Shown in pieces: positions 1 to 17,194 of a stretch of 64,000 bases of DNA; positions within the stretch are counted from its first letter, which is position 1, and every line of letters starts with the position of its first letter. Below the pieces are notes generated by a model, which was not told the origin of the DNA, did no database searches, and was given only the letters and a program-made list of their open reading frames with translations. A program made the translations under genes and the position numbers. Origin of the DNA: Nocardioides caldifontis (GTDB lineage: Bacteria; Actinomycetota; Actinomycetes; Propionibacteriales; Nocardioidaceae); assembly GCF_008087345.1 (NCBI RefSeq), contig NZ_VHIB01000001.1, forward strand, positions 620,001 to 684,000, given 5' to 3'.

Positions 1-594
1 TTCCCGTCGGAAGCCGCAGCGCGAGCCTGGTTCCACCACGACCCACCGCTGCGGGCCGACTCCGTGCTGGTCCGGACGATGGACCCCGCGCACCCGGGAA
101 CACCATCCGAGGACGGTGACCGCAGGCGAGGCCCGGCCTTCCAGGTGTTCGCCGATCCCTCCGAGCCCGATTTCCACGAGCTGGAGTTCATGGTGCCGAT
201 CGAGCGTGCGGAGGAAGCGCTCGGCGAGCTCCGCGAGATGCTGCTATCGGCCCATCCAGGGCACGCGTTGCCACTCGAGGTGCGCTTCGTCGCGGCCGAC
301 GACGCCTTCCTCAGCCCGTTCGCCGGCCGCGCCTCGTGCTCGATCTCGGTGTCAGGGGTGCTCGGCGAGGACAACGCCACCGTCTTCGCCGACTGCGAGC
401 GCGTCTTCGCCCGGTACGACGGCCGGCCGCACTGGGGCAAGTGGCACCCGTACGACGCCGCCGAGCTCGAACGGCTCTACCCGGATCTCGACCGGTTCCG
501 CAAGGTGCGCGAGGAGCTCGACCCGGGCGGCACCTTCACGAACCCCTACCTCGGCGCGCTGCTGGACCGTGCCCGCGAAGGAGCCGCCCGATGA
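1..594 (+). CDS. FAD-linked oxidase, D-arabinono-1,4-lactone/alditol oxidase family (5' truncated by window)
   Basis: The reading frame is open from base 1, so the FAD-binding N-terminal half lies outside the window. What remains is the C-terminal ALO domain: an HWGKW motif near 430-441, then a YP.L..F..VR..LDPGG.F.NPYL tail, both diagnostic of the aldonolactone/alditol oxidase branch of the VAO flavoprotein family. Family members oxidise a primary or secondary alcohol with O2 or a dehydrogenase acceptor and often carry covalent 8-alpha-histidyl FAD. The last bases overlap the next gene as ATGA, an aldehyde dehydrogenase, so an alcohol-to-aldehyde-to-acid pair is likely. An internal GTG at 64 exists but is not the true start. 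Substrate is unknown. Confidence 0.85.
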   Translation, partial: FPSEAAARAWFHHDPPLRADSVLVRTMDPAHPGTPSEDGDRRRGPAFQVFADPSEPDFHELEFMVPIERAEEALGELREMLLSAHPGHALPLEVRFVAADDAFLSPFAGRASCSISVSGVLGEDNATVFADCERVFARYDGRPHWGKWHPYDAAELERLYPDLDRFRKVREELDPGGTFTNPYLGALLDRAREGAAR

Positions 595-2030
595 GCCGCA
601 CCACCACTGTTCCTGGCCTCGCGAACCTCGTCGGAGGCGAGCAGGTCGAGTCCCGCTCCGGAGCCAGGCGCGCGGTCGTGGACCCCAGCACGGGGGAGCC
701 GTTCACCGACGCCCCCGACTCGACGCGGGAGGACGTCGAACGCGCGGTTGCGGCCGCCCGGCTCGCCGCCGGGAGCTGGTCGCAGACCACGCCGGCACAG
801 CGGGCGGAGGTGCTGCTCCGGCTCGCCGACCTGGTGACCGACCTGCGGGAGCCGCTCGTCGCCGACGACTCGCGCAACGCCGGCAAGCCGATCGGCACGG
901 TCGGCGACGAGGTCGACGCGGGAGCCGACTCCCTGCGCTACTTCGCGGGCGCTGCGCGTGTGCTCGAGGGCAAGGCGGCCGGCGAGTACCTGCCGGGGTA
1001 CACCTCGATGCTCCGCCGGGAACCGGTCGGCGTCGTCGGTCAGATCGCACCGTGGAACTACCCGGTGATGATGGCGCTCTGGAAGATCGGGCCGGCGCTC
1101 GCGGGCGGCAACACGGTGGTGCTCAAACCCGCCCCGGCCACGCCGGTCTCCACCCTGCGGCTCGCGGCGGCCGCCGCGGAGCTGCTCCCCCCAGGAGTGC
1201 TCAACGTCGTCGCGGGCGGCGACGAGGTCGGCGCGGCGCTCGTGGAGCACCCGGACGTCGACATGGTGTCGCTCACGGGCTCGGTGGCCACGGGCAAGGC
1301 GATCGCCAGGACCGCCGCCGACACGCTGAAGCGGGTCCACCTCGAGCTCGGAGGCAAGGCGCCGGTGGTCGTCTTCGACGACGCCGACGTGTCCGCCGCC
1401 GCGGCGGCGATCGTGGGTGGTGGCTTCTGGAACGCGGGGCAGGACTGCACAGCCGCGACGCGGGTGCTGGTGACACCGGCCCTCCACGACGAGCTGGTGG
1501 CGGCGGTCGTGCGCGGCGCCGAGGAGCTCGTCGTCGGGGACCCGTCGGCACCAGGCACGACGCTGGGGCCGCTCATCAGCGCGGCGCAGCGGGAGCGCGT
1601 GACAGGGCTCATCGGCCGACGTGCGCCGCGGGCCGAGGTGGTGACGGGTGGCCACCCCGTCGACCGCCCCGGGTTCTACTTCGAGCCGACGGTCGTCACC
1701 GGCCTCGAGCAGGGTGACGAGCTGGTCCAGGAGGAGATCTTCGGTCCGGTGGTCACGGTCCAGCGGGTCGCCGACGAGTCGGAGGCGGTGCGCGCGGCGA
1801 ACGCGACGCCGTACGGGCTGGTCGCCTCCGTGTGGACGCGTGACGTCGCCCGTGCCATGCGCATGTCGAAGGCGCTGCAGTTCGGCACCGTGTGGGTCAA
1901 CGACCACTTCCCGGTGACCCCCGAGATGCCCTTCGGTGGGTTCAAGCAGTCCGGCTACGGGAAGGACCTCTCGACCTACGCCCTCGAGGAGTACACCCTC
2001 CTCAAGCACGTGATGGTCAGCCATGGCTGA
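591..2030 (+). CDS. Aldehyde dehydrogenase (aminobutyraldehyde dehydrogenase-like)
   Basis: Predicted 479 aa, full length for the NAD(P)-dependent ALDH superfamily. Starts at ATG 591, overlapping the upstream stop (ATGA). Visible features are PWNYP near residue 165, the general-base Glu252 in LELGGK, and nucleophile Cys286 in GQDCTA. The GQDCTA form is typical of the PatD/aminobutyraldehyde branch. The enzyme would oxidise the aldehyde made by the preceding flavin oxidase to a carboxylate. The neighbouring acyl-CoA ligase on the other strand could then activate that acid. Family assignment is firm; the natural substrate is inferred only from context. Confidence 0.93.
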   Translation: MSRTTTVPGLANLVGGEQVESRSGARRAVVDPSTGEPFTDAPDSTREDVERAVAAARLAAGSWSQTTPAQRAEVLLRLADLVTDLREPLVADDSRNAGKPIGTVGDEVDAGADSLRYFAGAARVLEGKAAGEYLPGYTSMLRREPVGVVGQIAPWNYPVMMALWKIGPALAGGNTVVLKPAPATPVSTLRLAAAAAELLPPGVLNVVAGGDEVGAALVEHPDVDMVSLTGSVATGKAIARTAADTLKRVHLELGGKAPVVVFDDADVSAAAAAIVGGGFWNAGQDCTAATRVLVTPALHDELVAAVVRGAEELVVGDPSAPGTTLGPLISAAQRERVTGLIGRRAPRAEVVTGGHPVDRPGFYFEPTVVTGLEQGDELVQEEIFGPVVTVQRVADESEAVRAANATPYGLVASVWTRDVARAMRMSKALQFGTVWVNDHFPVTPEMPFGGFKQSGYGKDLSTYALEEYTLLKHVMVSHG

Positions 2031-2451
2031 GCCGGCCGCACCCCTGCTGCGTCGCCTCCACCACGTGGCGTTCGCCGAGGAGGAGGGCGCCCACCTGGTG
2101 CGGCGCCTGGTCGAGCTGTTCGGGCTCGAGGTGAGCAGCGAGGAGGAGGCGCCCGGGTTCGTCGAGCGCATGCTCCCGGTGGGCGAGTGCTGGCTGCAGG
2201 CGCTGGAGGCCACGGGTGACGGGGTGGTACGGCGGTCACTGGCCGGACGTGGTCCGGGGCTGCACCACATCGCCTTCGAGGTCGACGATCTCGCGGCGGT
2301 CCTCGACCACCTGCAGGCCCACGGTGTCGACCTGGTCGACCGGGAGCCCCGCCGGGGCGGAGGCGGCCACCGCATCGCGTTCGCCCACCCGCGTTCGTTC
2401 GGCGGCGTGCTGGTCGAGCTCGTCGAGAGCAGCGCACACGGCGAGCGCTGA
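2023..2451 (+). CDS. VOC-family protein (glyoxalase/methylmalonyl-CoA epimerase-like)
   Basis: 142 aa, overlapping the end of the aldehyde dehydrogenase by 8 nt. It has the single-chain VOC pattern: an N-terminal LHHVAFA strand, a GLHHIAFEVDD second module near residues 83-93, and a C-terminal HP..FGGVLVELVE strand. The metal-ligand positions (His in HHVAF, His in HHIAF, Glu in VELVE) match methylmalonyl-CoA epimerase and related isomerases/lyases. It may act on a later intermediate of the same pathway as the oxidase and dehydrogenase. It ends 4 nt from the convergent acyl-CoA ligase gene. Precise reaction unknown. Confidence 0.8.
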   Translation: MAEPAAPLLRRLHHVAFAEEEGAHLVRRLVELFGLEVSSEEEAPGFVERMLPVGECWLQALEATGDGVVRRSLAGRGPGLHHIAFEVDDLAAVLDHLQAHGVDLVDREPRRGGGGHRIAFAHPRSFGGVLVELVESSAHGER

Positions 2452-2455
2452 CAGG

Positions 2456-4117
2456 TCAGCGGTGCCCGCTGGCCCGAGTGCCGTCCCGCAGCACGTTGCG
2501 CCGGATCTTCCCGGTCTGCGTCTTGGGCAGGTCAGGGAGCACGTGCACGGTCCGGGGTGCCTTGTAGGCGGCGAGCCGGTCGCGGGTGTGCGCGATCAGC
2601 TCCTCGGGGGTGGCGGACGCCCCGGCCTTGAAGGACACGAACGCCGTCACGGCCTCCCCGCGGTAGTCGTCGGGCACACCGACGACGGCCGCCTCGTGCA
2701 CCGCCGGGTGGGTGTACAGGACGTCCTCGACCTCGCGGGGCCACACCTTGTAGCCGGAGGTGTTGATCTGGTCCTTGAGCCGGTCGACCAGGTAGACCCA
2801 GCCCGCCTCGTCCATGATCGCGCCGTCCCCGGTGTGCAGCCACCCGCCAGGGATCGTGGCGGCGGTCGCCTCGGGGTTGCGCCAGTAGCCGGGCACGATC
2901 TGGGGGCCGCGGAGGACGAGCTCGCCCTGCTTGCCCGGCCGCACCGGCTCCCCCGCGGTGTCGACGACGTCGGCTTCGAGGCCGGGCAGCGGGACACCGA
3001 CCGACAACGTGCCGCTCGCCTCGTGGACAGGGGCCTCGGCGCCGAGGGGGACGGCGATGACCCCCGACGACGTCTCCGTCATGCCGTAGATGTTGTGGAT
3101 GTAGACGCCGAAGCGGTCCCGGAACCGCTCGATCGTCGCGGGCGGGATCGGCGCGCCACCGCTGTAGAGCGACTTCAGCGAGGCGAAGTGCTCTCGCGAG
3201 GCGTGCGGCAACTGGTAGATCGCATTGAAAGCCGTGATCGAGCCGATCGTGAAAGTGACGCGGTGCTCGACGAAGGCCTCGATCGCGACCTCGGGGTGAA
3301 AGCGGCCGGCCATCACCAGCACCGCGTCGTGGAGCAACGCGATCGTGGCGTTGATGACCGCGCCGGTGATGTGGAACAGCGGCGCCGTCGCGAACACCGC
3401 GTCGCCGGGGCGGAGCTCGATCCACGCTGCATAGGTGCTGGTGACCGCCAGCAGGTTGGCGTGGGTGTTCATCGCGCCCTTCGGCGGCCCGGTCGTGCCG
3501 GAGGTGTAGGTCAGCAGGGCGACGTCGTCGCCGGTGACCTCGAGCGGCGCCGGCCGCTGCCCCCGGAACGCGACGAGCAGTTCCTCGAGGTCGTGCTCCG
3601 CGGCCGCCTCTCGTGCCGGAGCGTCGCCGAACACCCGGGCGTCGTCGCGGCTCTGGAACGCGCGCGGGGACGTGCTCACCAGCCACCGGGCGGAGCTGCC
3701 GCTGAGCGTCTCGGCCGTGGCTGCCGCGTCGACGTCGGTGCAGACGACCGCGACCGCCTCGGCGTCGTCGACCAGCCGCCGGAGCTCCTGACCGCGGTAC
3801 ATCGGGTTGAGGACGAGGGCGGTGGCCCCGAGCTTCCACAACGCCAGCATGGAGAGGGCGAACTGCGGGACGTTCTGGAGGCAGATGCCCACTCGGTCAC
3901 CTCGGCCGGTCCCCAAGGAGGCGTACGCCGCGGCCAGCGCGTCGGTGGTCTCGTCGACCTCCCGCACGGTCATGGTGGCGTCGAAGTAGGCGATGGCCGT
4001 CGCATCCGGCTCACGCGCGACGCGTGCCCGCCAGGCTTCGACGAGCGAGGAGTGGCGGACCGGCTCGGCAGCGGCGACCGCCTGGGTGTAGAGCGCCGTC
4101 CATCGCGGCTGGTCCAT
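2456..4117 (-). CDS. AMP-dependent acyl-CoA synthetase (class I adenylate-forming ligase)
   Basis: Predicted 553 aa. Contains the ANL-family P-loop YTSGTTGPPKGA, the YGMTETS motif, the HTGD hinge motif followed by DRLKDQI, and the C-terminal catalytic Lys in TGKIRR. It converts a carboxylic acid to acyl-AMP and then acyl-CoA. I chose ATG at 4117 because GGAGGAGG sits 6 nt upstream; a TTG at 4123 would be too close to that site. It lies 50 nt downstream of a TetR gene on the same strand, and both may be cotranscribed. The substrate could be the acid produced by the oxidase/ALDH pair across the convergent junction, but a medium- or long-chain fatty acid is equally possible. Confidence 0.92.
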   Translation of the reverse strand: MDQPRWTALYTQAVAAAEPVRHSSLVEAWRARVAREPDATAIAYFDATMTVREVDETTDALAAAYASLGTGRGDRVGICLQNVPQFALSMLALWKLGATALVLNPMYRGQELRRLVDDAEAVAVVCTDVDAAATAETLSGSSARWLVSTSPRAFQSRDDARVFGDAPAREAAAEHDLEELLVAFRGQRPAPLEVTGDDVALLTYTSGTTGPPKGAMNTHANLLAVTSTYAAWIELRPGDAVFATAPLFHITGAVINATIALLHDAVLVMAGRFHPEVAIEAFVEHRVTFTIGSITAFNAIYQLPHASREHFASLKSLYSGGAPIPPATIERFRDRFGVYIHNIYGMTETSSGVIAVPLGAEAPVHEASGTLSVGVPLPGLEADVVDTAGEPVRPGKQGELVLRGPQIVPGYWRNPEATAATIPGGWLHTGDGAIMDEAGWVYLVDRLKDQINTSGYKVWPREVEDVLYTHPAVHEAAVVGVPDDYRGEAVTAFVSFKAGASATPEELIAHTRDRLAAYKAPRTVHVLPDLPKTQTGKIRRNVLRDGTRASGHR

Positions 4118-4167: not shown

Positions 4168-4839
4168 CTACTGGTCGCGGTGCAGTAGCAGCCGCACGAT
4201 GTGCTCGACACGCCGGTCCCGGAAGGCCGGGGTCCAGGCCCGCTGCCCCATGCCGGCCACAATCGTGGCGTCGTGCTCGAGCGGGAAGTAGCACAGCCCG
4301 ATGAGGCTCAGGAACAGCTGCTCCGGCGCCTTGGTGGCCTCGGCGACACCAGCCCGGGTCATCAGGGCGACCATCCGGTCGGCGAACTTCTCGGAGTGGC
4401 GCGGCAGCTGCTCGCGCCTGCCGGCGTGCTCGAGCGCGTCGCGGGTCAGGAGCCACACGAATGAGGGGTTGTCCAGGAGGAAGTCGAGATAGCCGCGGAC
4501 GAGCAGCCGCAGCGCCCCCTCGCCGTCCTCGGGTGCGTTCTCCAGGAGCTGCTCAGCCGCGTTCGCGACGGCGTCGAGCGCCGCGTTGCGTCGGGCGAAG
4601 ACGCGCTGGAGGACGGCCCGATGCAGCTCCTCCTTGGAACCGAAGAAGTACCGCGGCAGCCCGACCGACACGTGTGCCCGCTGGGCGATGGCCGCGAGCG
4701 AGGCGCCCTGGAAGCCCAGGTCGGCGAAGAGCTGCTCGGCCGCGTCGAGGATCGCGGTGCGCGACCGCTCGGCGTCGCGCGACTTGCCGGTGCGTCGGCC
4801 TCCCGGCGGTGCGGCGATCGCGTCGCTCCTGGTCGTCAT
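4168..4839 (-). CDS. TetR-family transcriptional regulator
   Basis: 223 aa from ATG 4839. The N-terminal HTH spans roughly residues 20-66 (R.AILDAAEQLFA..GF.GASLA.IA..A.VS.G..R.YFGSK), followed by an all-helical ligand-binding region. A GTG-rich upstream extension to 4887 is open but lacks a ribosome site, while GGGGG lies just upstream of 4839. It is transcribed divergently from the ThiY-like transporter operon and is followed by the acyl-CoA ligase, so it probably controls one or both. The ligand is not predictable. Confidence 0.9.
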   Translation of the reverse strand: MTTRSDAIAAPPGGRRTGKSRDAERSRTAILDAAEQLFADLGFQGASLAAIAQRAHVSVGLPRYFFGSKEELHRAVLQRVFARRNAALDAVANAAEQLLENAPEDGEGALRLLVRGYLDFLLDNPSFVWLLTRDALEHAGRREQLPRHSEKFADRMVALMTRAGVAEATKAPEQLFLSLIGLCYFPLEHDATIVAGMGQRAWTPAFRDRRVEHIVRLLLHRDQ

Positions 4840-5105: not shown

Positions 5106-6182
5106 ATGACGTTGGTGCAAGAGAGCCGTATCCGCACCGCCCTCGGCGCGCTCGTGCTCGTAGGTGCAGGAGCACTGGCCGGCTGCGGTTCCGACGACGC
5201 GGAGGCCGGCTCGGAGATGGAAGCCGGCGGCGGAGCCACCGGGGCTCCGGAACGGGTGCGGCTCGCCCTCGACTGGGTGCCGAACGCCAACCACACGGGG
5301 TTCTTCGTCGCCGACGAGAAGGGCTACTTCGAGGACGCCGGCCTCGACCTTGAGGTCATGCCGTACTCCCAGGCTCCTGCGGACACCGTGGTCAGCGCGG
5401 GCAAGGCCGAGTGCGGGGTGACGTCGCCGTCGTTCCTGGCACTGGCCGTGGGCAAGGGCGCGGACCTCAAGGCCGTGATGGGTGTGGTCCAGAAGCCGCT
5501 CGGGGCGCTCTACGTCCTCGCCGACTCGGAGTACGAGCGGCCGAGTGACCTCGAGGGGAAGACCTACGGGGGCTTCGGAGCCGCCGGAGACAAGGAGCTC
5601 GTCACCAGCCTGCTGCAGCACGACGGCGCGGACGGGAACTTCAAGTACGTCAACCTGCAGACCGGCACCCTGGAGGCGCTGCTGTCCGAGAAGGTCGACT
5701 TCGTCAACGCCTACCTGAACGTCGAGCCCTTCGTGGCGGAGGCGCGAGGCGTCGAGCTGCGGGCCTTCCCCTACACCGATGCCGGGATACCCGAGTTCCC
5801 CAACGTGGTCATCGCCTGCAACGGCGAGTGGCTCGCGGAGAACGAGGAGACCGCCAAGTCCTTCGTGGCCGCCGCCTCGGAGGGGTGGCAGTTCGTCCAG
5901 GACAACCCGGCCGACGCGGCCCAGGTGCTCGTCGACAGCAACCCTGACTCGTTCGCCACCGACGAGGCCAAGGCGGTGCCGACGAAGGGGTTGGAGCTCA
6001 TGGCTGCCGAGGGGTACATCGCCCGCGAGGGCAGCGCGCCGGGGTGCCTCTCCGTCTCCGCTCTCGAGGCGATGGCCGACCGGTACGACGAGGTCGGCTA
6101 CTTCGAGGCAGCCGGTCAGGCCAAGCCCGACATGGCCGCCATCGCCACCACCGACTACCTCCCCGAGGGCTGCGAGGAGTGA
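5106..6182 (+). CDS. ABC transporter substrate-binding lipoprotein, NMT1/THI5 (ThiY-like) family
   Basis: 358 aa. Start taken at ATG 5106 with AGGTGG 5 nt upstream; a TTG at 5094 is the alternative. A signal peptide ends in the lipobox LAGC with lipidated Cys27. The mature part begins with the LDWVPNANHTGFFVADEKGYF signature of THI5/NMT1-like binding proteins, which bind pyrimidines such as formylaminopyrimidine (ThiY), or riboflavin, or taurine-like ligands in relatives. It is first in an operon with an ATPase, a TenA-like protein and a permease. That organisation recalls thiamin-pyrimidine importers, but no TPP riboswitch is seen and later genes are degradative, so the ligand may be a nutrient rather than a vitamin to be salvaged. 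Confidence 0.9.
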   Translation: MTLVQESRIRTALGALVLVGAGALAGCGSDDAEAGSEMEAGGGATGAPERVRLALDWVPNANHTGFFVADEKGYFEDAGLDLEVMPYSQAPADTVVSAGKAECGVTSPSFLALAVGKGADLKAVMGVVQKPLGALYVLADSEYERPSDLEGKTYGGFGAAGDKELVTSLLQHDGADGNFKYVNLQTGTLEALLSEKVDFVNAYLNVEPFVAEARGVELRAFPYTDAGIPEFPNVVIACNGEWLAENEETAKSFVAAASEGWQFVQDNPADAAQVLVDSNPDSFATDEAKAVPTKGLELMAAEGYIAREGSAPGCLSVSALEAMADRYDEVGYFEAAGQAKPDMAAIATTDYLPEGCEE

Positions 6183-6186
6183 CGAC

Positions 6187-6993
6187 GTGGTGACCACCGG
6201 TCCTTCCGGCGTCGCGTCCGCGACCCCGCACATCGCGATCACCGACCTTCGTAAAGGGTTCCGCGGCCGCGACGGGGGATGGGTCCCCGTCCTCGACGGG
6301 CTCACGCTCGACGCACGCGACGGCGAGCTGGTCAGCATCCTGGGGCCCAGCGGTTCGGGGAAGAGCACGCTGCTGAACATCGTGGCGGGGCTCGACAAGG
6401 CTGACGGCGGCACACTCGCCGTCGAGGGCCGGCCGCTGGGGGCGGAGGACCACCCTGTCGCCTACATGCCGCAGAAGGACATGCTCTTCCCGTGGCGCTC
6501 CGTCTTGGAGAACGTCACCATGCCGCTCGAGCTGCAGGGGGTCGCCAAGCGGGCGGCCCGGGCCCGCGCCACCGAACTGCTGCCGCAGTTCGGCCTGGAG
6601 AGCTTCGCCGACGCGTACCCGTTCACCCTCTCCGGCGGCATGCGCCAGCGCGCCGCCCTGCTGCGGACAGTGATCCAGGACCGGTCGATCCTGCTGCTCG
6701 ACGAGCCCTTCGGTGCGCTCGACTCCCTGACCCGCTCGGCGATGCAGGAGTTCCTCCTGTCGATCTGGAGCCGTTTCCGCCGGACGATCCTGTTCATCAC
6801 CCACGACATCCGCGAAGCGGTGTACCTCTCCGACCGGGTCTTCGTGCTGAGCCCCCGCCCGGCGCGCGTGGCGTTGGAGGTCGAGATCGACCTGCCGCGA
6901 CCAAGGACCCTCGACGTGACGGTTACACCGGAGTTCGCGCAGTACGAGGCGACGCTTCTGCGCGCGCTCGCCCACCAGGCCGCACCCGCCTGA
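6187..6993 (+). CDS. ABC transporter ATP-binding protein (ThiZ/SsuB/TauB type)
   Basis: 268 aa from GTG 6187, with GAGGAG 7 nt upstream inside the end of the preceding gene. It carries Walker A GPSGSGKST, the Q-loop MPQKD, the signature LSGGMRQR and Walker B LLLDEPFGALD followed by the switch His in FITHD. The FPWRSVLENV stretch after the Q-loop is typical of nitrate/sulfonate/pyrimidine importers. It works with the lipoprotein upstream and the permease at 7717. The permease is separated from it only by the tenA-like gene, which indicates that uptake and TenA chemistry are coupled. Confidence 0.93.
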   Translation: MVTTGPSGVASATPHIAITDLRKGFRGRDGGWVPVLDGLTLDARDGELVSILGPSGSGKSTLLNIVAGLDKADGGTLAVEGRPLGAEDHPVAYMPQKDMLFPWRSVLENVTMPLELQGVAKRAARARATELLPQFGLESFADAYPFTLSGGMRQRAALLRTVIQDRSILLLDEPFGALDSLTRSAMQEFLLSIWSRFRRTILFITHDIREAVYLSDRVFVLSPRPARVALEVEIDLPRPRTLDVTVTPEFAQYEATLLRALAHQAAPA

Positions 6994-7039
6994 GCGACCA
7001 CCCGATTGTCACACCCACCGCCTACAGAGGAGCCACCCC

Positions 7040-9424: not shown

Positions 9425-10257
9425 AAGCGCAGGCGAGGGCAGGGCTCTACCTCGAGCCCTCGGCGCTGGCCGAGATGCTCGACCGGCCCGACGTCCGCGT
9501 GGTCGACACCCGGGCTTCGCTCGCCGACGGCCCGGTCGGCAGGGAGATGTGGGCAGCCGGGCACGTCCCTGGCGCCGTCCACGCCGACTGGATCGAGGAC
9601 TGGGGCGTCACCATCGACGGCGTCGAGGGAATGCTCCCGGACTCCGAAGGCTTCGCGGAGGCGATGTGTCGACTGGGGATCGGCAACGACACCCTCGTGG
9701 TCGCCTACGACGACAACACGCTCTTCACGGCCTCGCGGCTGGCGTGGGCGCTCCTGCACTTCGGTCACGAACGGGTCGCCGTTCTGGACGGCGGTTTCCC
9801 GGCATGGCAGGAATCTGGGCTGCCCGTGTCGACCGACGAAGCCGACGGTTGCCCGGAGCCGAGGAGCTTCGAGGCCGGGGCTCCCGGCGGAGGCCGGCTG
9901 GAGATGCGGGACGTCCGCGCCCTCCTCGGGCGGGGCGCCGCGACGCTGGTCGACTGCCGCATGGACCAGACGTTCCACGCCTCGGAAGGGCGGATCCCGG
10001 GGGCGACCCGGTTGCCGTCGCCGTCCCTGGTGGGCGAGGACGGCCGCTTCAGGCGGGGAGACGAGGTGGCCGCCCTCGCGGCGGCGGCCGGGGTGAAGAA
10101 GAACGGCCCCACGGTCCTCTACTGCGGAGGCGGCGTCTCGGCCGCCGCCGTGCTGATCGCGTTGCGTGAAGCGGGTTTCGACGATCTCGCGTTGTACGAC
10201 GGCTCGTGGGCGGAGTGGTCCAGGCACACCGACAATCCCGTCGAGAGGCACCGGTGA
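9421..10257 (+). CDS. sseA: Thiosulfate/3-mercaptopyruvate sulfurtransferase (tandem rhodanese)
   Basis: 278 aa from GTG 9421, overlapping the previous stop. Two rhodanese domains: the N-terminal one (VVDTRAS, GHVPGAVHADW) is inactive, while the C-terminal one carries the active-site loop YCGGGVSAA with persulfidated Cys235, the CGxGV form typical of mercaptopyruvate/thiosulfate sulfurtransferases. It moves sulfane sulfur onto thiols or cyanide. Location in the middle of a heterocycle-type catabolic operon suggests it handles sulfur released from the substrate rather than serving general metabolism. Confidence 0.88.
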   Translation: MKAQARAGLYLEPSALAEMLDRPDVRVVDTRASLADGPVGREMWAAGHVPGAVHADWIEDWGVTIDGVEGMLPDSEGFAEAMCRLGIGNDTLVVAYDDNTLFTASRLAWALLHFGHERVAVLDGGFPAWQESGLPVSTDEADGCPEPRSFEAGAPGGGRLEMRDVRALLGRGAATLVDCRMDQTFHASEGRIPGATRLPSPSLVGEDGRFRRGDEVAALAAAAGVKKNGPTVLYCGGGVSAAAVLIALREAGFDDLALYDGSWAEWSRHTDNPVERHR

Positions 10258-10637
10258 ACCGACCCGCGGCTCCACCACCCCTGGGTGCGTACGCGCAGAC
10301 CCTCAGCGCTGCCGGGCTCTGCTTCTTCTCCGGTCAGGTGCCGGTCGACCCCGCCGGGGACGTCGTCGCCGAGGACGTCACCGCCCAGGCCGAGCAGGTC
10401 TTCACGAATCTCGCAGCATGTCTTGCGAGCGAGGGGCTGTCGATGGTGGACGTCGTCTCCCTCACGACATACCTGTGCGACGTCCTCGACGCCCCGACGG
10501 TCGCGGCCGTGCGTGGTCGTCACCTCGGTGACCACCGCCCCACGAGCACCGTCGTTGGGGTTTCGGAGCTCCTCGACCCGCGGTGGCGCCTGGAGGTGCA
10601 AGCGGTCGCGGTGAACCGGTCAACCCAGCAGCACTAA
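10254..10637 (+). CDS. RidA/YjgF family protein (enamine/imine deaminase-like)
   Basis: 127 aa, full length for the family, from GTG 10254 overlapping the previous gene as GTGA. Visible signatures are the start strand PLGAYAQTL, FFSGQVPVD, and a C-terminal R..LEVQAVAV strand holding the conserved carboxylate-binding Arg. RidA proteins hydrolyse reactive 2-aminoacrylate-type imines; catabolic paralogues are common in operons degrading N-heterocycles. Here it may clear an imine or enamine intermediate after ring opening. Confidence 0.85.
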   Translation: MNRPAAPPPLGAYAQTLSAAGLCFFSGQVPVDPAGDVVAEDVTAQAEQVFTNLAACLASEGLSMVDVVSLTTYLCDVLDAPTVAAVRGRHLGDHRPTSTVVGVSELLDPRWRLEVQAVAVNRSTQQH

Positions 10638-10653
10638 GGACAGGAGCACGCGC

Positions 10654-11286
10654 GTGCGCATCGACAACCAGTTCACCGTCCCCGCAACCCCCGAGCGGGC
10701 TTGGGAGTTCCTCACAGATCTGGGGCGAGTGGCCCCATGCCTCCCCGGCGCCACGGTGGAGTCGGTGGTAGGAGATGCGCTCACCGGCAGGGTGGCGCTG
10801 CGCATCGGGCCGATGAACATGACCTACGCGGGTGAGGCGAAGTTCGTCGTCAAGGACGACGCGAACAAGGTCGCGACGATCGAGGCCGGCGGCCGGGACG
10901 GCCGCGGCGGGGGGTCGGTGAAGGCGACGATCAAGGCCAGCCTGGCTGAGGCCGCCGACGGCACCGACGTGCTACTGACGACCGAGCTCGGGATGACCGG
11001 GCGTGTCGCCCAGCTGGGCCAAGGGCCGGTCAAGGAGCTCAGCACGAAGCTGATGGGGCAGTTCGCCGAGTGCCTCGCGGCCCGCATCGACGATCCCGAT
11101 CACGAGGCCGACGACGAGCAGCCGGCTCCGTCCCGGCGCGGCGGGGAACCCGTCGAGGCCATCGACCTCCTCGACGGCGCGATGCCGTCCCCAAAGGTGC
11201 TCACCGCTGCGGCTGGAGCGGTTGTGCTCGTCGTGCTCGGCGTGCTGCTACGCGGCCTCACCGGCCGCAAGGGGCGGAGCGCGTGA
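10654..11286 (+). CDS. CoxG-like SRPBCC protein with C-terminal membrane anchor
   Basis: 210 aa from GTG 10654. Residues 1-150 form the CoxG (carbon monoxide dehydrogenase subunit G) SRPBCC domain, recognisable by PATPERAWEFL, CLPGA and an NKVATIEAGGRD-type central part. A charged linker follows, then one membrane helix near residues 180-200 (LTAAAGAVVLVVLGVLL) and a basic end. CoxG anchors molybdenum hydroxylases to the membrane. It immediately precedes the three hydroxylase subunits and overlaps the first by one base, so it very likely positions that enzyme at the membrane. Confidence 0.88.
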   Translation: MRIDNQFTVPATPERAWEFLTDLGRVAPCLPGATVESVVGDALTGRVALRIGPMNMTYAGEAKFVVKDDANKVATIEAGGRDGRGGGSVKATIKASLAEAADGTDVLLTTELGMTGRVAQLGQGPVKELSTKLMGQFAECLAARIDDPDHEADDEQPAPSRRGGEPVEAIDLLDGAMPSPKVLTAAAGAVVLVVLGVLLRGLTGRKGRSA

Positions 11287-12158
11287 TGTCCGACGTCCTC
11301 ACGACCATGGCCTACGAGCGGGCTCGCACCCTCCCTGAAGCACTCGTGCTGCTGGGCGAGGGGGGCGAGGACGCCCGGCCGATCTCCGGTGGCCAGAGTC
11401 TCGTGCCGATGATGAACCTGGGCCTGTCGGCGCCCGCGTTCCTCGTGGACGTCTCCGGGATCCCGACGTTGCGCACGGTGGCAGTGGAGGGGGAGCACCT
11501 GCTCATCGGTGCGGCGGTCACCCATGCCGAGCTGCTCACCGACCCACTCGTTGCCGAGCACGCCCCGCTGCTGGTGAAGGCGGCCGCGCACGTCGGGAGC
11601 GTGAGGATCCGCAACCGCGGGACCATCGGAGGCTCGGTGGCGCACGGGGACCCGGCGGCCGAGCTGCCCCTCGGTTGCCACGTGCTCGAGGCGGACTACC
11701 GCGTCGAGAAGGTCTCCGGGGGAGAGTGGCGGCCGGCACGCCGGTTCTCCCTCGGCTATTACCAGACCGATCTTGCGCCCGGCGAGCTCGTCACGGCGGT
11801 GAGGGTAGCGCTGCGGCCGCGACACGGGTGGGGGTTCCAGGAGTACTCCCGCCGCGCGGGCGACTTCGCCTTGGCCTCGGCGGCCGCGGGCGTCCTGCTC
11901 GACGGCGAACGGATCTCGACAGTCGCGCTCGCCGTGACAGGTGCCGGCGACCGGCCGACGCGCCTGCTCGAGGTCGAGCAACGGCTCAGCGGGGTCCACG
12001 TCGAGGACGCCGAGCAGGCGCTCGGCGGCCTCGCCGGTGAGCTCGAGGTGGCCGACGACGCGTACTGCAGGGGCACCGACCGGGCCAGGTTGATCGAGGC
12101 GATGGCGGTGCGGGCGGTCCGCGACGCCTGCGCGGACGCGAGGAGGAACGAGGCATGA
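11286..12158 (+). CDS. Molybdenum hydroxylase FAD-binding (medium, CoxM-like) subunit
   Basis: 290 aa from ATG 11286 (TGATG junction with coxG; GTG 11283 is possible). Contains the FAD pyrophosphate loop AGGxS as SGGQSLVPMMNL, and the RNRGTIGGSVAHGDPAAE motif that binds FAD in CoxM/CutM-type subunits. It passes electrons from the iron-sulfur subunit to the acceptor. Gene order medium-small-large is the usual cox/cut order. Confidence 0.93.
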   Translation: MSDVLTTMAYERARTLPEALVLLGEGGEDARPISGGQSLVPMMNLGLSAPAFLVDVSGIPTLRTVAVEGEHLLIGAAVTHAELLTDPLVAEHAPLLVKAAAHVGSVRIRNRGTIGGSVAHGDPAAELPLGCHVLEADYRVEKVSGGEWRPARRFSLGYYQTDLAPGELVTAVRVALRPRHGWGFQEYSRRAGDFALASAAAGVLLDGERISTVALAVTGAGDRPTRLLEVEQRLSGVHVEDAEQALGGLAGELEVADDAYCRGTDRARLIEAMAVRAVRDACADARRNEA

Positions 12159-12631
12159 GCAGCGTCGAGACCACGATGACGCTCAACGGGAGAGTGGTGA
12201 CCGGGGATGCGCCGGCCGACACGACACTCGTGCGGTGGCTGCGCGAACAGGCTCACGCCTACGAGGTGAAGGAAGGGTGCAACGAGGGCACCTGCGGGAC
12301 CTGCACGGTCCTCGTCGACGGGCGCGCGGCGACCGGTTGCACGACGCTCGCGGTGCAGGTCGACGGCGCTGCCGTGGAGACCAGCGCCTCGCTGGCCGAC
12401 GGCGACGAGCCGAGCCCGCTGCAGGCGAAGTTCTGGGAGACCGGCGCCGCGCAGTGCGGCTTCTGCACCCAAGGGATGCTGATGTCGGCCGTGGAGCTGC
12501 TTCGCTCCGGTGAGCAGGTCACACCCGCCTCGGTGCGCGAGCACCTGCACGGGAACCTGTGCCGGTGCACCGGTTACCAAGCCATCGTCGACGCCGTCGT
12601 CAGGGCCGCGGAAGAGGGGGCGACCCGATGA
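12155..12631 (+). CDS. Molybdenum hydroxylase [2Fe-2S] (small, CoxS-like) subunit
   Basis: 158 aa from ATG 12155, overlapping the upstream gene by 4 nt. The N-terminal plant-type cluster ligands lie in EGCNEGTCGTC plus a Cys about 20 residues later; the second cluster is held by CGFCTQG and the CRCTGY motif. This is the standard two-cluster small subunit that links the molybdenum centre with FAD. Confidence 0.95.
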   Translation: MSSVETTMTLNGRVVTGDAPADTTLVRWLREQAHAYEVKEGCNEGTCGTCTVLVDGRAATGCTTLAVQVDGAAVETSASLADGDEPSPLQAKFWETGAAQCGFCTQGMLMSAVELLRSGEQVTPASVREHLHGNLCRCTGYQAIVDAVVRAAEEGATR

Positions 12632-14931
12632 CCGAGACGCTGCCGTCGACCGCCGATGCTCGCGGGACCCGGGTCGTGAACCACGGCGTGAAACGCCAGG
12701 ACTCCCTGGAGAAGCTGCTGGGCAAGACCCGTTACGCAGGTGACTTCGACGTCGCCGGCCAGCTGCACGCCCGGCTGGTCCGGTCGCCGGTCCCCTCGGC
12801 CCGCATCGTCTCGCGCGACGCCACGGCGGCGATGGACGTGCCTGGTGTGGTCGCGGTCCTCTTCGGCGAGGACGTACCGAACAACGACATCCCGACGAAC
12901 ACCGCCGGTATCAAGGGCCGGCCGCTACCTCCGTCCTGGGTACTGGCGGTGGACCGGGTCAGGTACCACGGCGAGCCGGTCGCGCTGGTCGTCGCGGAGA
13001 ACACCAGGGCGCTGGCGGCTGCCGAGGCGTTGGTGGACGTCGAGTATGACGTGCTGCCCGTCGTCTCCGACCCGGAGGCCGCGTTGGAGCACGACTCGTC
13101 CGAGGTGCACGAGGGTGGGAACCTGCTCAGCCAGTGGCGCATCGACCGCGGCGACGTCGACGGGGCCTTCGCTGACGCCCCGATCATCGTCGAGGGTCGC
13201 TACGAGGCGCAGGTGGTCGACCACGCCTACCTCGAGCCCGAGACGGGGATCGGCTGGCTGGACGACGAGGGCGTGATCAACATCCGGGTGTCCACCCAGG
13301 AGATCGAGCACTACCGACGGATCGCGCGCGTCGTCGGGTTGCCCGACGCCAAGGTGCGGGTCCAGGCGCCGTACCTGGGCGGCGGCTTCGGCGGCAAGGA
13401 GGACATGACCGTCGAGCCCTACATCGCGCTGGCGGTGCTGCGCACCGGACGCCCGGTGAAGATGGTGTGGAGCCGGCAGGAGTCCCTGACGGCACGGGCC
13501 AAACGGCATCCGGTGCGGATGCACTACCGCACCGCTGCGGCCGCGGACGGCACGCTGCTGGCTCACGACATCCAGATCGTCTCGGACGCCGGCGCCTACC
13601 CGCTGCTCAGCGGGTTCGTGCTGCTCTACATCACGCTGAACGCGGCCGGTCCCTACCGTTGCGACAACGTCCGGGTGCACTCGCGAGCGGCGTACACGAA
13701 CAACACGCCGGGGTCTGCGTTCCGCGGCTTCGGTGGGATGCAGCCGGTGCTCGCCTACGAAGCGCAGATCGACAAGGTCGCCGACGCAGCCGGCCTGGAC
13801 CGCGTCGAGGTCCGCAAGGCGAACGCCTTCGAGGCCGGTGACCGGATCCCGGCCGGCCAACGGATCGACACCGCCGTGTGGCTGCCGCAGTGCATCGACG
13901 CGGTGCTGGACGCGATTGGTCCCCGTCCTGTGCCGTCCTCTCCGGAGCACCGGGTGGGGCTCGGCCTGGCGTGCAACGTGCAGCCCTACGGGCGGGTGGC
14001 CTGGATGAACGACTCCGCCTCGGCCTGGGTGGGCTGCGAGCGTGACGGCGGCGTGGTCGTCAGGTGCGGTGTTCCCGACGTCGGCGGCGGGCAGGTGTCG
14101 TCGCTCGCCCAGATCGCCGCCGAAGTCCTGCACGTGCCGCTGGAGAAGGTGACCGTGCACTTCGGCGACAGCGCGCGGACGCCGCTGGCCGGACGCACCA
14201 CGGCGACGCGTCAGCTGTACATGTCCGGCAACGCCGTGCTCTCCGCCGCCGAGGAGCTGCGTGCGCAGCTGGTCCAGGGTGTCGTGAAGGGCACCGGCCA
14301 TGGCGCAGCCGACCTCACGCTCGCCGAAGGCGGGGTGCTCACCCCCGACGGTGTCGTCCCCCTGGCGGAGGTGGTGGCGATGTGCATGGCGAACGGCGTG
14401 GCGATCAACGCGATGAAGACCTACTTCGCGCCGACCGGCGAACCGGTGCGCGAGCTGGTGGACTCCGAGCGGATCGTCCCGGACTTCACCTTCGGCGCGC
14501 ATGCCGCCTACGTAGAGGTCGACACGAGGACCGGCGAGGTGCGCCCCCTGCGCTACGTGGCCGCGCACGACGTGGGCCGGGCGATCAACCCGCTGAGCGT
14601 CCGGGGCCAGATCGAGGGCGCCGTCGTCCAGGGGCTCGGCTACGCCCTGTCCGAACGCATCGTGTACGACGAGGGGGTCAACCTCACCGGGGCGTTCTAC
14701 CAGTACGCCATCCCGACTGCTGCCGACTGCCCCGAGATCGAGGTCAAGATCCTCGAGTCCGGTGAGGGCGTCGGGCCGTTCCATGCCCGAGGCATCGGCG
14801 AGCCGCCGATCGGACCCTGCGCCGCGACCATCGCCAGCGCGGTCGAGGACGCCGTGGGAGCACGCCCCACGACGCTCCCGATGCTGGCCGAGACGGTGCT
14901 CGCCTGTGTCGACGAGGGAGCGGCGCGATGA
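12628..14931 (+). CDS. Molybdenum hydroxylase large subunit (xanthine dehydrogenase/nicotinate hydroxylase type)
   Basis: 767 aa from ATG 12628, overlapping the small subunit. Has the MPT-cytosine-dinucleotide binding segments GGGFGGKED and GSAFRGFGG, and the catalytic Glu725 in IGEPPIGP. The AFRG loop differs from the Cys-containing CSFR loop of true aerobic CO dehydrogenase, so this is a hydroxylase for an aromatic N-heterocycle or aldehyde, not CODH. The enzyme inserts water-derived oxygen at an electron-poor ring carbon. In this operon the likely substrate is the imported heterocycle or a TenA product; that is inference. Confidence 0.92.
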   Translation: MTETLPSTADARGTRVVNHGVKRQDSLEKLLGKTRYAGDFDVAGQLHARLVRSPVPSARIVSRDATAAMDVPGVVAVLFGEDVPNNDIPTNTAGIKGRPLPPSWVLAVDRVRYHGEPVALVVAENTRALAAAEALVDVEYDVLPVVSDPEAALEHDSSEVHEGGNLLSQWRIDRGDVDGAFADAPIIVEGRYEAQVVDHAYLEPETGIGWLDDEGVINIRVSTQEIEHYRRIARVVGLPDAKVRVQAPYLGGGFGGKEDMTVEPYIALAVLRTGRPVKMVWSRQESLTARAKRHPVRMHYRTAAAADGTLLAHDIQIVSDAGAYPLLSGFVLLYITLNAAGPYRCDNVRVHSRAAYTNNTPGSAFRGFGGMQPVLAYEAQIDKVADAAGLDRVEVRKANAFEAGDRIPAGQRIDTAVWLPQCIDAVLDAIGPRPVPSSPEHRVGLGLACNVQPYGRVAWMNDSASAWVGCERDGGVVVRCGVPDVGGGQVSSLAQIAAEVLHVPLEKVTVHFGDSARTPLAGRTTATRQLYMSGNAVLSAAEELRAQLVQGVVKGTGHGAADLTLAEGGVLTPDGVVPLAEVVAMCMANGVAINAMKTYFAPTGEPVRELVDSERIVPDFTFGAHAAYVEVDTRTGEVRPLRYVAAHDVGRAINPLSVRGQIEGAVVQGLGYALSERIVYDEGVNLTGAFYQYAIPTAADCPEIEVKILESGEGVGPFHARGIGEPPIGPCAATIASAVEDAVGARPTTLPMLAETVLACVDEGAAR

Positions 14932-16331
14932 GCGCGGCGGAGTTCGCGCCCTCGTCGGCGGGGCTCGGCACCGTGGTCGTGCTCGAGACCCCGAGTCTGG
15001 GGGACCGGAGCTACCTCGTGCACGACGGTCGCGCCGCGTTCGTGGTCGACCCGCAGCGCGACATCGACCGGGTGCTGGAGTTGCTCGACCGCGAGAAGCT
15101 GTCTCTGACCCACGTCTTCGAGACCCACCTGCACAACGACTACGTCACCGGTGGTCTGGCGCTGGCGAGGGAGACCGGGGCGACGTACCTCCTCAACGGT
15201 CGCGAGGAGGTCTCCTTCGACCGTGAGCCGCTCCATGACGGACAGGTGCTCGACGTCGGCGACCGGATGGCGGTCGAGGTCGTGGCCACCCCGGGACACA
15301 CCTTTCACCACCTCTCCTACGTCCTGCAGGACACGGTCACGCAGCGACGTCAGGCGGTCTTCTCCGGGGGCTCGCTGCTCTACGGGTCGACCGGGCGGCC
15401 GGACCTCCTGGGCGAGGAGCACACCGAGCGGCTGGCGCAGCTGCAGCACAGCTCCGCCCATCGCCTGGGCGGCCTGGTGCCCGACGACGCGGTTCTCTAC
15501 CCGACCCACGGGTTCGGGTCGTTCTGCTCGGCCACCCAATCCGACGCGAGCCGCTCGACCATCGGTGCCGAACGCCGGTCCAACCCGGTGCTCGTCGACG
15601 ACCAAGCAACATACGTTCGCGACCTGCTGGCCGGCCTGGGTCCGTGGCCGGCGTACTACACGCACATCGCGCCGCTCAACAGCGCCGGCCCCGGACGCGC
15701 CGATCTCTCCTACCCTGAGACGGCCACCGCGGACGAGATCCGTCGACGTCTCGATGCAGGGGAGTGGGTCGTCGACCTGCGCAACCGCACGGCGTTCGCC
15801 GCCGGTCACGTGCCGGGGACCTTCAACTTCGGGCTCGACGGTTCCTTCGCCACCAACCTGGGCTGGTTGATCGACTGGGGCGTCCCCCTGACGTTGCTGG
15901 CGGCGCAGCCCGAGGACGTCGCTGCCGCGCAGCGCGAGCTCGTGCGGATCGGGATCGACCGGCCGGTGGCCGCGGCATCGGGTGACCCCCGACGGTGGAG
16001 CGAACATCGGCTGGTGTCCTTCGAGCTGGTCGACTTCGCCACGTTGGCCGACGTCCTCGGCCGGCGCCCTGTGGTCGTCGTGGACGTGCGACGGCACGAG
16101 GAGTTCGCGATCTCGCACGTCGACGGCGCCGTGAACGTGCCGCTGCACGAGCTCCGAGCACGCGCGGACGAGCTGCCGGACGGCGAGCTGTGGCTGCACT
16201 GCCAGAGCGGCTACCGCGCCTCGGTGGCCGCCTCGCTGCTGCACGCGGCAGGTCGGGACGTGGTCGCCGTCGACGACCACTTCACGGCAGCAGCCGTCGC
16301 CGGGCTCCGCCTGACGAGCGCGGAGGCATGA
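14928..16331 (+). CDS. Persulfide dioxygenase-like MBL domain fused to two rhodanese domains
   Basis: 467 aa from ATG 14928, overlapping the hydroxylase gene. Residues about 10-250 form an ETHE1-type metallo-beta-lactamase domain with THLHNDY and TPGHTFHH. A first rhodanese domain (about 265-355) has no Cys in its active loop and appears structural. The second (about 365-465) carries LHCQSGYR with Cys425. Such fusions oxidise persulfide sulfur to sulfite and shuttle sulfane sulfur. The next gene encodes a sulfite exporter, so a persulfide-to-sulfite-to-export route can be read directly from gene order. Confidence 0.88.
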   Translation: MSAAEFAPSSAGLGTVVVLETPSLGDRSYLVHDGRAAFVVDPQRDIDRVLELLDREKLSLTHVFETHLHNDYVTGGLALARETGATYLLNGREEVSFDREPLHDGQVLDVGDRMAVEVVATPGHTFHHLSYVLQDTVTQRRQAVFSGGSLLYGSTGRPDLLGEEHTERLAQLQHSSAHRLGGLVPDDAVLYPTHGFGSFCSATQSDASRSTIGAERRSNPVLVDDQATYVRDLLAGLGPWPAYYTHIAPLNSAGPGRADLSYPETATADEIRRRLDAGEWVVDLRNRTAFAAGHVPGTFNFGLDGSFATNLGWLIDWGVPLTLLAAQPEDVAAAQRELVRIGIDRPVAAASGDPRRWSEHRLVSFELVDFATLADVLGRRPVVVVDVRRHEEFAISHVDGAVNVPLHELRARADELPDGELWLHCQSGYRASVAASLLHAAGRDVVAVDDHFTAAAVAGLRLTSAEA

Positions 16332-17194
16332 CGCTCGCCGTCGTCCTGGTCCTCGCGCTGTTCGTGGGCGTCGCGCTCGGCGCCCTGGGGGGTGGCGGCT
16401 CGATCCTGACAGTGCCGATCCTCGTCTACGTCGCCGACCTCGAGCCGAAGCAGGCGATCGCCACGTCGCTGCTCGTGGTCGGGGTGACCTCGTGCGTGGG
16501 TGCGGTCACGCATGCCCGGGCAGGCAGGATCCGTTGGCGCACCGGGACGCTCTTCGGTACCGGGGGCATGGCCGGCGCCCTCGTCGGGGGCATCCTTGGT
16601 GGTCTCGTCCCCGGCCGGCTCCTGCTGGTGGGGTTTGCCGTGATGATGATCGCCACGTCCGCGGCCATGCTGCGCGGTGGTGCGGCGCTGCAGCCCGCCG
16701 AGGACGTCAAGGTCGTCCGCGCGGTCGTCGACGGCATCGGTGTCGGCCTGATCACCGGTCTGGTCGGCGCGGGAGGCGGGTTCCTCGTGGTGCCGGCGTT
16801 GGCGCTGCTGGGTGGGCTCTCCATGCCGACAGCCATCGGTACGTCGTTGGTCGTCATCGCGTTGAAGTCGGGCGCAGGGCTGGCGGGCTACCTCACGAGC
16901 GTCTCGATCCCGTGGGGCCTGGCCACGGCAGTGCTCGCGGCCGCGATCCTCGGCAGCGTCGTCGGGGGTCGGATCACCGGTGCGGTTGACGAGGACCGGC
17001 TCCGGAACATGTTCGGCTGGTTCGTGCTGACCATCGGCACCTTCATGCTTCTGGAGCAGGCGGCACCGTCGTCCTGGTTGCTGCCCGGAGCGGTCGTCCT
17101 CGCCCTGGGCGTGGTGGCGGTCGGCGGCTGGCGTTGGTCAGTCGCTCGCAGCGGCGTCCGGGCCCCACGACGACTGGCGCGCAAGCCGGGTTAG
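16328..17194 (+). CDS. TauE/SafE-family sulfite exporter-like membrane protein
   Basis: 288 aa from ATG 16328, overlapping the persulfide dioxygenase as ATGA. Around eight hydrophobic segments and the duplicated glycine-rich TauE motif (GALGGGGSILTVPIL near residues 17-31 and GLVGAGGGFLVVPAL near 142-156). Family members export sulfite, sulfoacetate or other small anions. As last gene of a series handling sulfane sulfur, sulfite export is the simplest job. Its TAG stop at 17192-17194 overlaps the TAA stop of the convergent permease gene. Confidence 0.85.
   Translation: MTLAVVLVLALFVGVALGALGGGGSILTVPILVYVADLEPKQAIATSLLVVGVTSCVGAVTHARAGRIRWRTGTLFGTGGMAGALVGGILGGLVPGRLLLVGFAVMMIATSAAMLRGGAALQPAEDVKVVRAVVDGIGVGLITGLVGAGGGFLVVPALALLGGLSMPTAIGTSLVVIALKSGAGLAGYLTSVSIPWGLATAVLAAAILGSVVGGRITGAVDEDRLRNMFGWFVLTIGTFMLLEQAAPSSWLLPGAVVLALGVVAVGGWRWSVARSGVRAPRRLARKPG

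Follow-up and report, generated by a model that had tools for sequence, protein, structure and literature searches.

A 13-gene operon in a 64,000-nucleotide stretch of the Nocardioides caldifontis genome is the downstream third of a gene island of about 39 kb. With moderate confidence, we read this island from sequence comparison as catabolic for thiamine (vitamin B1) or its breakdown products, and specifically for the pyrimidine half of the molecule. A sulfur-heterocycle branch for the thiazole half, proposed from gene content in one genome, is tentative and on the doubtful side. The stretch analyzed (the window) is C1:620001–684000 (C1 is contig NZ_VHIB01000001.1), and window positions are C1 positions minus 620000. 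The island spans C1:598506 to at least C1:637194. A preliminary description of the window had read positions 1–17194, with the operon at 5106–17194, as a candidate island for catabolism of a sulfur-containing heterocycle, possibly thiamine or its thiazole. The operon is largely as described, but the island starts 21.5 kb upstream of the window, where three other TenA genes lie; comparative evidence now favors the pyrimidine half, whereas the thiazole half is plausible only. Pyrimidine catabolism is the better supported because TenA genes are clustered, two THI5-type importers are present, neither ThiC nor a ThiE above cut-off is found, no TPP riboswitch was found in the island, and its core is conserved in other genomes.

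Four TenA Genes and an Asn44 Branch

A genome-wide search of the host (4.81 Mb in 33 contigs, 99.65% complete, G+C 71%) with PF03070 returned four TenA genes, all within C1:600217–627699 (27.5 kb). Under independent scatter over 4.8 Mb, such clustering would occur about once in a million cases (4 × 0.0057 cubed). The same island carries two complete THI5-type ATP-binding cassette (ABC) importers, the amidohydrolases AH1a, AH1b, and AH2, two M20-family enzymes (M20a and M20b), an M29/NicX-like protein, a B12-dependent mutase pair, a CaiB coenzyme A (CoA)-transferase, and an LLM oxidoreductase. It also encodes an alcohol dehydrogenase (ADH), two aldehyde dehydrogenases (ALDH1 and ALDH2), an AldO-like flavin adenine dinucleotide (FAD) oxidase (ALO), an acyl-CoA ligase, and regulators. 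G+C content is 0.69–0.73 over window positions 1–30000, with no signal of recent import there, and a palindrome search for regulator sites returned short repeats only.

Each TenA copy has the PF03070 domain with Cys135 and Glu205 (numbering of B. subtilis TenA throughout). We compared eight residues. TenA4, the copy in the window operon, keeps all of them (D44, Y47, Y112, C135, Y139, Y163, E205, and F208), in agreement with the full catalytic set claimed for it earlier; TenA2 also keeps eight, and TenA3 keeps seven. TenA1, TenA2, and TenA3 pass the thiaminase II cut-off (TIGR04306, 130 bits).

TenA1 differs from the other three copies at position 44, where it has Asn and they have Asp; Asp44 of TenA contacts the pyrimidine. 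Asn44 is present in all seven TenA1 copies from the clusters described below. In a background of 120 TenA matches, 118 have Asp at this position; of the other two, a truncated sequence has Ser, and the cluster TenA1 of genome G599 itself has Asn. Position 163 is Phe or Trp, not Tyr, in 7/7 TenA1 copies (background: Tyr 115, Trp 4, Phe 1). In a tree, the TenA1 copies form one clade (support 97/81) with TenA3 as sister (99/98), and TenA2 and TenA4 stand apart, although the program warns that long branches, TenA3 included, are possibly misplaced. By sequence, TenA1 is a distinct Asn44 branch. The simplest inference is that the substrate is changed at its 4-amino group or close to it, as would agree with the presence of two deaminase-type amidohydrolases.

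The unusual residues could also mean that the TenA1 ligand differs from that of a standard TenA, TenA having been recruited for a new hydrolysis in the catabolism of some other pyrimidine or N-heterocycle, such as a drug or pesticide built on 2-methylpyrimidine, a pyrimidine antivitamin, or an imidazole. Amidohydrolases and an M29/NicX-like protein, being general heterocycle tools, would suit that purpose. We consider it rather unlikely, given the checked residues kept by TenA2, TenA4, and, save one, TenA3, the two THI5-type importers, and the recurrence of TenA1 in seven of the eight clusters.

The M29/NicX-like protein (C1:610983) was rejected as a NicX-type ring dioxygenase. The iron ligands of NicX, the 2,5-dihydroxypyridine dioxygenase, are His265, His318, and Asp320. 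The match is near full length (E 1.6e-7) and the HLD stretch is kept, yet all six aligned copies have Glu in place of the first His ligand. Since M29-like acidic/His positions are also kept, we read the protein as a putative M29-type metallohydrolase. M20a scores 171 bits against an ArgE/DapE-type model, below its cut-off of 217.6. The mutase has separate B12-binding and large subunits, and all four aligned copies contain the RQYAG and LARKT stretches, which we take to be the equivalents of Tyr89 and Arg207 of methylmalonyl-CoA mutase.

The Core of the Island Recurs in Four Families

M20a was used as a marker for related clusters. Among 394 sampled genomes of the class, with at most four candidates scored per genome, it was found in seven including the host; the six others are 73–79% identical, and nothing else reaches E 1e-60. 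A search of 150 genomes of the G599 family found G599 and G824, and no additional cluster was seen in 35 and 17 genomes around G433 and G656. In total, eight cluster genomes (the host, G433, G687, G701, G656, G599, G824, and G670) belong to four families (f1, f21, f39, and f41). Their core consists of a THI5-type ABC importer (8/8), ALDH1 (8/8), TenA1 (7/8), M20 and other amidohydrolases, the LLM oxidoreductase, and the B12 mutase block (5/8). In the host, this core makes up the upstream part of the island, outside the window, so that about half of the island is shared with the other genomes.

Two arrangements were distinguished. In type 1 (G433, G687, G701, and G656), the genes follow one order: AH2, AH1a, M29-like, AH1b, GntR, LLM, M20b, CaiB, mutase, B12-binding subunit, M20a, the substrate-binding lipoprotein SBP1, permease, ATPase, ALDH1, and TenA1. 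The encoded enzymes and transporters are 41–79% identical to those of the host, whose cluster is the type 1 gene set with several genes moved. In G687 and G656, the ALDH1–TenA1 end is found on a different contig, the breaks falling at contig ends, and continuity is inferred; the G656 piece holds ALDH1 (69%), an ADH (60%) between ALDH1 and TenA1, TenA1 (52%), and a second TenA (40%). Type 2 (G599 and G824) comprises M29-like, LLM, M20a, GntR, ALDH1, a THI5-type importer operon that contains TenA, AH1b, a GMC oxidase, AH2, and TenA1, plus an aminotransferase and an amidase (the oxidase and these two named by family scans on the G599 copies). It lacks the mutase block, and its importer proteins are 33–55% identical to the host's.

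Further oxidative genes vary from genome to genome. The host has a molybdenum (Mo) hydroxylase and sulfur genes. G701 has a protein resembling 3-mercaptopyruvate sulfurtransferase (MST; 33% identical to the window protein) and an NtaA/DmoA-family monooxygenase beside TenA1. A Rieske oxygenase lies near TenA1 in G687 (family scan) and G433 (by eye). G599 has NtaA/DmoA-type monooxygenases, a flavin-reductase-like protein, and a RutA-like enzyme (E 1.4e-68; 232 bits, below the cut-off of 498); NtaA/DmoA-like and LLM genes were seen by eye at similar places in G824. For genomes other than the host, this link of TenA to sulfur or ring oxidation is suggestive only.

The Window Operon and a Possible Sulfur Branch

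The operon consists of 13 co-directional genes on the + strand, mostly overlapping, with gaps of 4, 46, −4, 61, −4, −4, 16, −1, −4, −4, −4, and −4 bases. The Rid gene is taken to start at the GTG at 10254, overlapping the sulfurtransferase stop; the alternative start at 10338 leaves an 80-base gap. Much of the preliminary description of this region is borne out: the tight operon, its THI5-type importer, a sulfurtransferase (now seen to have two domains), a TauE/SafE-type permease at its end, described there as a sulfite exporter, and, in the adjoining block, an aldehyde dehydrogenase (over cut-off) and an acyl-CoA ligase (named by NCBIfam scores below cut-off). The importer lipoprotein, SBP2, matches structures 4nmy (E 2.9e-32) and the FAMP-binding protein 3ix1 (E 2.7e-28), as well as yeast-type THI5 enzymes. 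What had been called a fragment of an FAD alcohol oxidase is a whole gene, cut by the window edge only: ALO has 409 amino acids, its gene starts 635 bases before the window, and it matches AldO (2vfr) over the full length, with the GSGHS and HWGK stretches kept.

Of the solved structures, the MST 1urh is the one nearest to the sulfurtransferase, whose loop, CGGGVS, is like the CGSGVT of 1urh and unlike the CRKGVT of a thiosulfate enzyme; the protein has two rhodanese domains and scores 153 bits, short of the MST equivalog cut-off of 250. The CoxG-like protein claimed earlier is present, and so are three subunits of the Mo hydroxylase, which scores as xanthine-dehydrogenase rather than CO-dehydrogenase type: the large subunit scores 475 bits against the former and at most 319 against the latter, and no NCBIfam cut-off is reached. 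Aerobic CO oxidation was accordingly rejected (222.7 and 319 bits with CO-dehydrogenase large-subunit models; cut-offs 991 and 950).

We compared the window genes by tblastn with stretches of 40–99 kb from each of the seven other genomes. Neither ALO nor the metallo-β-lactamase (MBL)-fold hydrolase, CoxG, Mo hydroxylase, MBL-rhodanese fusion, or TauE proteins had a match there at E 1e-5. The exceptions among the sulfur genes are the MST-like protein of G701 and a Rid protein (34%) in G670, on a contig other than that of M20a. The earlier expectation that homologous clusters would retain both tenA and the sulfur genes therefore has a split answer: TenA1 is kept in 7/8, and the sulfur genes are mostly unmatched.

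Nor did the following searches find a relative of the whole operon, for which the co-occurrence of TenA, CoxMSL-like, and ETHE1-rhodanese genes had been proposed earlier as a check. None of the best 80 of 499 TenA4 relatives (all ≤45% identical) has the sulfur operon; two of these 80 have CoxMSL-like matches (L076 and L080), and one has a THI5-type importer near TenA (L129, from an uncultured member of the Rubrobacteraceae, where three TenA-like genes, two of them very divergent, lie with the importer within about 10 kb). Among 293 genomes of the order, nothing close to the MBL protein was seen (best other match 33%). When TenA4, the MBL protein, SBP2, M20a, and the M29-like protein were searched against plasmids, every match was below 60% identity. 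Twenty TenA loci from the host's family included none that was cluster-like, the nearest (L056) having only weak matches to AH2 and an ABC ATPase, and the four congeners listed had no TenA4 match at E 1e-10. A Nonomuraea locus in which TenA and MBL matches lie close together was set aside: its TenA adjoins a ThiD-like gene (by eye), with no such cluster. In three Thermomicrobiaceae loci (L110, L111, and L112), a standard TenA and a divergent second one are about 4 kb apart, and an ABC-ATPase-like match falls in between.

The unmatched genes would suit two unrelated adjacent units, namely a pyrimidine island reaching to about window position 2451 or the SBP2 start, and a separate operon for a sulfur compound or S-heterocycle other than thiamine. 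A separate TetR-type gene flanking the operon and the isolation of the MBL protein within its order point the same way. We regard this division as improbable: one tight operon holds TenA4, a THI5-type importer, and the sulfur genes together, and in G701, too, TenA1 has a sulfurtransferase and an NtaA/DmoA monooxygenase as neighbors.

Breakdown Rather than Salvage

The host genome had no ThiC match (in a control, 13 of 14 genomes were positive), and its best ThiE score was 20.7 bits, below the cut-off of 27. Because ThiC is missing and no ThiE exceeds the cut-off, the host looks like a thiamine auxotroph, and hydroxymethylpyrimidine (HMP) freed in the cell would have no visible way to rejoin thiazole. 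No Rfam thiamine pyrophosphate (TPP) riboswitch reached the gathering threshold in the window or in the island stretches L007 and L008; the sole one of the genome, at C1:1098423–1098529, precedes a ThiB-like protein (by eye) far from the island. Stretches from six of the other clusters (all except that of G670, and short of some flanks) were scanned and had none either. Of four stand-alone TenA-SBP-permease-ATPase modules from another family, two have one (L155 and L159, not L157 or L158).

These absences make it unlikely that the island regenerates HMP from degraded thiamine for cofactor synthesis by ThiXYZ-type import, an M20 deformylase, and TenA, which we rate the least probable of the alternatives even though the protein families are those of the known salvage route (parts of PMC10470507 and PMC5627462) and TenA1–3 exceed the thiaminase II cut-off; four TenA genes and some 25 further catabolic-type genes would also be superfluous.

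Proposed Route and Comparison with Known Systems

In the catabolic reading, the two THI5-type systems would import thiamine-derived pyrimidines, M20a would strip an N-acyl group, and TenA2 and TenA4 would free HMP. ADH in the host, or the GMC oxidase in relatives, together with ALDH1 could then convert the 5-hydroxymethyl group to a carboxylate. AH1b and AH1a are predicted to deaminate the pyrimidine ring, and TenA1 may act on a pyrimidine, such as a 4-oxo form, that is modified at the site usually bound by Asp44. The LLM enzyme, AH2, M20b, and the M29-like protein are candidates for ring reduction, opening, and hydrolysis, after which CaiB and the B12 mutase might channel a branched dicarboxylate into central metabolism.

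For the thiazole, ALO and ALDH2 would oxidize the hydroxyethyl side chain, the Mo hydroxylase would hydroxylate the ring at C2, and the MBL enzyme would open it. Ring hydrolysis followed by loss of CO2 and ammonia would give an α-mercaptoketone, which the MST-like enzyme could desulfurize to levulinate (if the side chain is oxidized first) or 5-hydroxy-2-pentanone; the MBL-rhodanese fusion and TauE would dispose of the sulfur. The MST-like enzyme fits this route because 3-mercaptopyruvate is itself an α-mercaptoketone, like the predicted ring-opening product.

Taken to its full extent, the proposal is a complete mineralization of vitamin B1, pyrimidine and thiazole alike, in a host unable to make or reassemble it, with the Asn44 TenA recruited for an altered pyrimidine. 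The pyrimidine core would then be a patchily kept module in four families, joined to varying oxidative modules. We hold this as a possibility that the evidence so far leaves short of probable.

Several observations weigh against the proposed role, besides the sulfur genes left unmatched in the other clusters. Three of the assigned sulfur-branch enzymes appear, by alignment, to deviate from textbook active-site residues. MBL lactonases of the AiiA type bind metal through an HxHxDH motif and a later Asp; the window MBL protein, whose fold was correctly assigned in the preliminary description, carries HLDWDH in place of the HLHWDH or HLHFDH of AiiA, and a Gly opposite the Asp of the AiiA TIDAS stretch. 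The iron ligands of ETHE1 are two His and one Asp; the putative persulfide-dioxygenase/rhodanese protein is indeed a fusion, but has GG where its best PDB match, 3tp9, has GD. RidA imine deaminases carry the arginine of a PAR motif; the protein called RidA belongs to the Rid family, but PTS replaces the PAR seen in its two best PDB matches. At 119 bits, TenA4 is short of the thiaminase II equivalog cut-off of 130, and G670, whose cluster is interrupted by short contigs, has no TenA match at all. THI5/NMT1 proteins act on many substrates, and a pairing of a THI5-type importer with a Mo-hydroxylase-like enzyme, with no TenA match in the stretch, in three loci of the host's own family (L168, L169, and L170) speaks for caution. 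Finally, auxotrophy could make the destruction of intact thiamine costly, and what the host consumes may be limited to degraded thiamine.

Studies of how bacteria break thiamine down to thiamine acetic acid, thiazole acetic acid, and hydroxymethylpyrimidine go back to the late 1960s. Our literature search, which mostly did not reach subscription journals, found no published gene set or downstream-step genes for thiamine or thiazole catabolism. Thiamin dehydrogenase is a flavoprotein acting on the hydroxyethyl side chain. ALO, which keeps the GSGHS stretch of AldO, is a lead in this direction only. The bacterial enzyme has covalent flavin (Kenney 1976; Gomez-Moreno 1979; cited in PMC4950071 and PMC9850908). 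A paper on Brevibacterium (PMC6467879) was set aside, since it concerns a YkoCDE-type transporter and histamine and not the island cluster.

The pathway closest in components is the ThiXYZ-YlmB-TenA salvage of base-degraded thiamine (Jenkins et al., 2007, as reported in part of PMC5627462). The island shares with it a THI5/ThiY-type importer with its ABC partners, an M20-family enzyme, and TenA; it differs in that TPP riboswitches are missing, ThiE stays below cut-off, TenA is present four times, and oxidizing, hydrolyzing, and CoA-linked enzymes are numerous. The reductive (Pyd) and oxidative (Rut) routes of pyrimidine catabolism are echoed by the amidohydrolases, M20-type enzymes, and LLM flavoenzymes, and by the RutA-like protein of G599. 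To our knowledge, neither route includes TenA, THI5-type importers, a B12 mutase, or the oxidation of alcohols and aldehydes. In vitamin B6 catabolism, a heterocycle is oxidized at its hydroxymethyl groups before ring opening. The same order is proposed here, and the MBL protein matches 4-pyridoxolactonase only weakly (44 bits; cut-off 325).

Gene Inventory and Neighboring Blocks

Table 1. Genes of the island and the adjoining importer. Positions with the prefix C1 are contig positions; all others are window positions.
Gene or product	Position	Strand	Assignment
AH1a	C1:598506-600044	-	ATZ/TRZ-type amidohydrolase
TenA1	C1:600178-600846	+	PF03070; TIGR04306 142.8 bits (cut-off 130)
First THI5-type importer: ATPase, permease, lipoprotein SBP1	C1:600942-603639	+	
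TenA2	C1:603636-604331	+	TIGR04306 136 bits (cut-off 130)
M20a	C1:604474-605679	+	ArgE/DapE type
B12-binding subunit	C1:605687-606109	+	TIGR00640/TIGR00641 pair over cut-off
Mutase large subunit	C1:606106-607692	+	TIGR00640/TIGR00641 pair over cut-off
CaiB CoA-transferase	C1:607725-608885	+	
M20b	C1:608882-609988	+	
LLM oxidoreductase	C1:609988-610986	+	
M29/NicX-like protein	C1:610983-611981	+	
GntR	C1:612018-612689	+	
AH1b amidohydrolase	C1:612735-614051	-	
Second GntR	C1:614172-614876	+	named by eye
Zn-ADH	C1:614969-615988	-	
ALDH1	C1:616050-617525	-	
AH2	C1:617623-618630	+	Amidohydro_2; closest solved structures 4-oxalomesaconate hydratase and decarboxylases
TenA3	C1:618706-619359	+	TIGR04306 148 bits (cut-off 130)
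ALO, AldO/xylitol-oxidase-like FAD alcohol oxidase	1-594 (whole gene C1:619365-620594)	+	TIGR01679 339 bits (cut-off 292); 2vfr E 9.2e-39
ALDH2	591-2030	+	PF00171; PRK13473 over cut-off
VOC/glyoxalase-fold protein	2023-2451	+	PF13669
Acyl-CoA ligase	2456-4117	-	NCBIfam acyl-CoA synthetases, the 25 matches listed all below cut-off
TetR-type regulator beside operon	4168-4839	-	named by eye
SBP2, THI5/ThiY-type (THI5/NMT1) lipoprotein	5106-6182	+	PF09084 E 1.5e-52
ABC ATPase	6187-6993	+	PF00005
TenA4	7040-7720	+	PF03070; TIGR04306 below cut-off
ABC permease	7717-8571	+	PF00528
MBL-fold hydrolase, altered metal motif	8633-9424	+	PF00753; AiiA alignment
Two-domain sulfurtransferase (rhodanese/MST)	9421-10257	+	1urh E 1.6e-38
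Rid-family protein without PAR arginine	10254-10637	+	PF01042
CoxG-like protein, hydrophobic C-terminal stretch	10654-11286	+	PF06240
Mo hydroxylase, FAD subunit	11286-12158	+	
Mo hydroxylase, 2Fe-2S subunit	12155-12631	+	
Mo hydroxylase, Mo subunit	12628-14931	+	
MBL-rhodanese fusion (ETHE1-like)	14928-16331	+	GG in place of GD
TauE/SafE-type permease	16328-17194	+	PF01925
BMP-type ABC importer, four genes	17191-21842	-	PF02608, PF00005, PF02653 for three of four genes

The BMP-type importer abuts the operon tail to tail, and its four proteins have relatives of 50–60% identity 8–13 kb from TenA1 in G701. It is possibly part of the island, and its substrate may be a related nucleoside-like compound. 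Further into the window, two blocks were named by eye. Positions 29136–37228 hold APC permease, GntR, P450, ferredoxin, FAD reductase, glutamine-synthetase-like, and glutamine-amidotransferase-like genes, which may serve the catabolism of an amine. Positions 41685–47853 hold CaiB, acyl-CoA dehydrogenase, TetR, thiolase, BKACE-like, and hydroxyacyl-CoA/carnitine-dehydrogenase-like genes, which may serve catabolism of the carnitine type.

Implications

A conserved cluster with a diagnostic TenA subfamily makes the old question of bacterial thiamine degradation testable. If the catabolic reading holds, M20a together with the Asn44 TenA1 would serve as markers for the loss of vitamin B1 in the environment, and the label thiaminase II or HMP transporter would not by itself mark a gene as one of salvage, since such genes can be catabolic.

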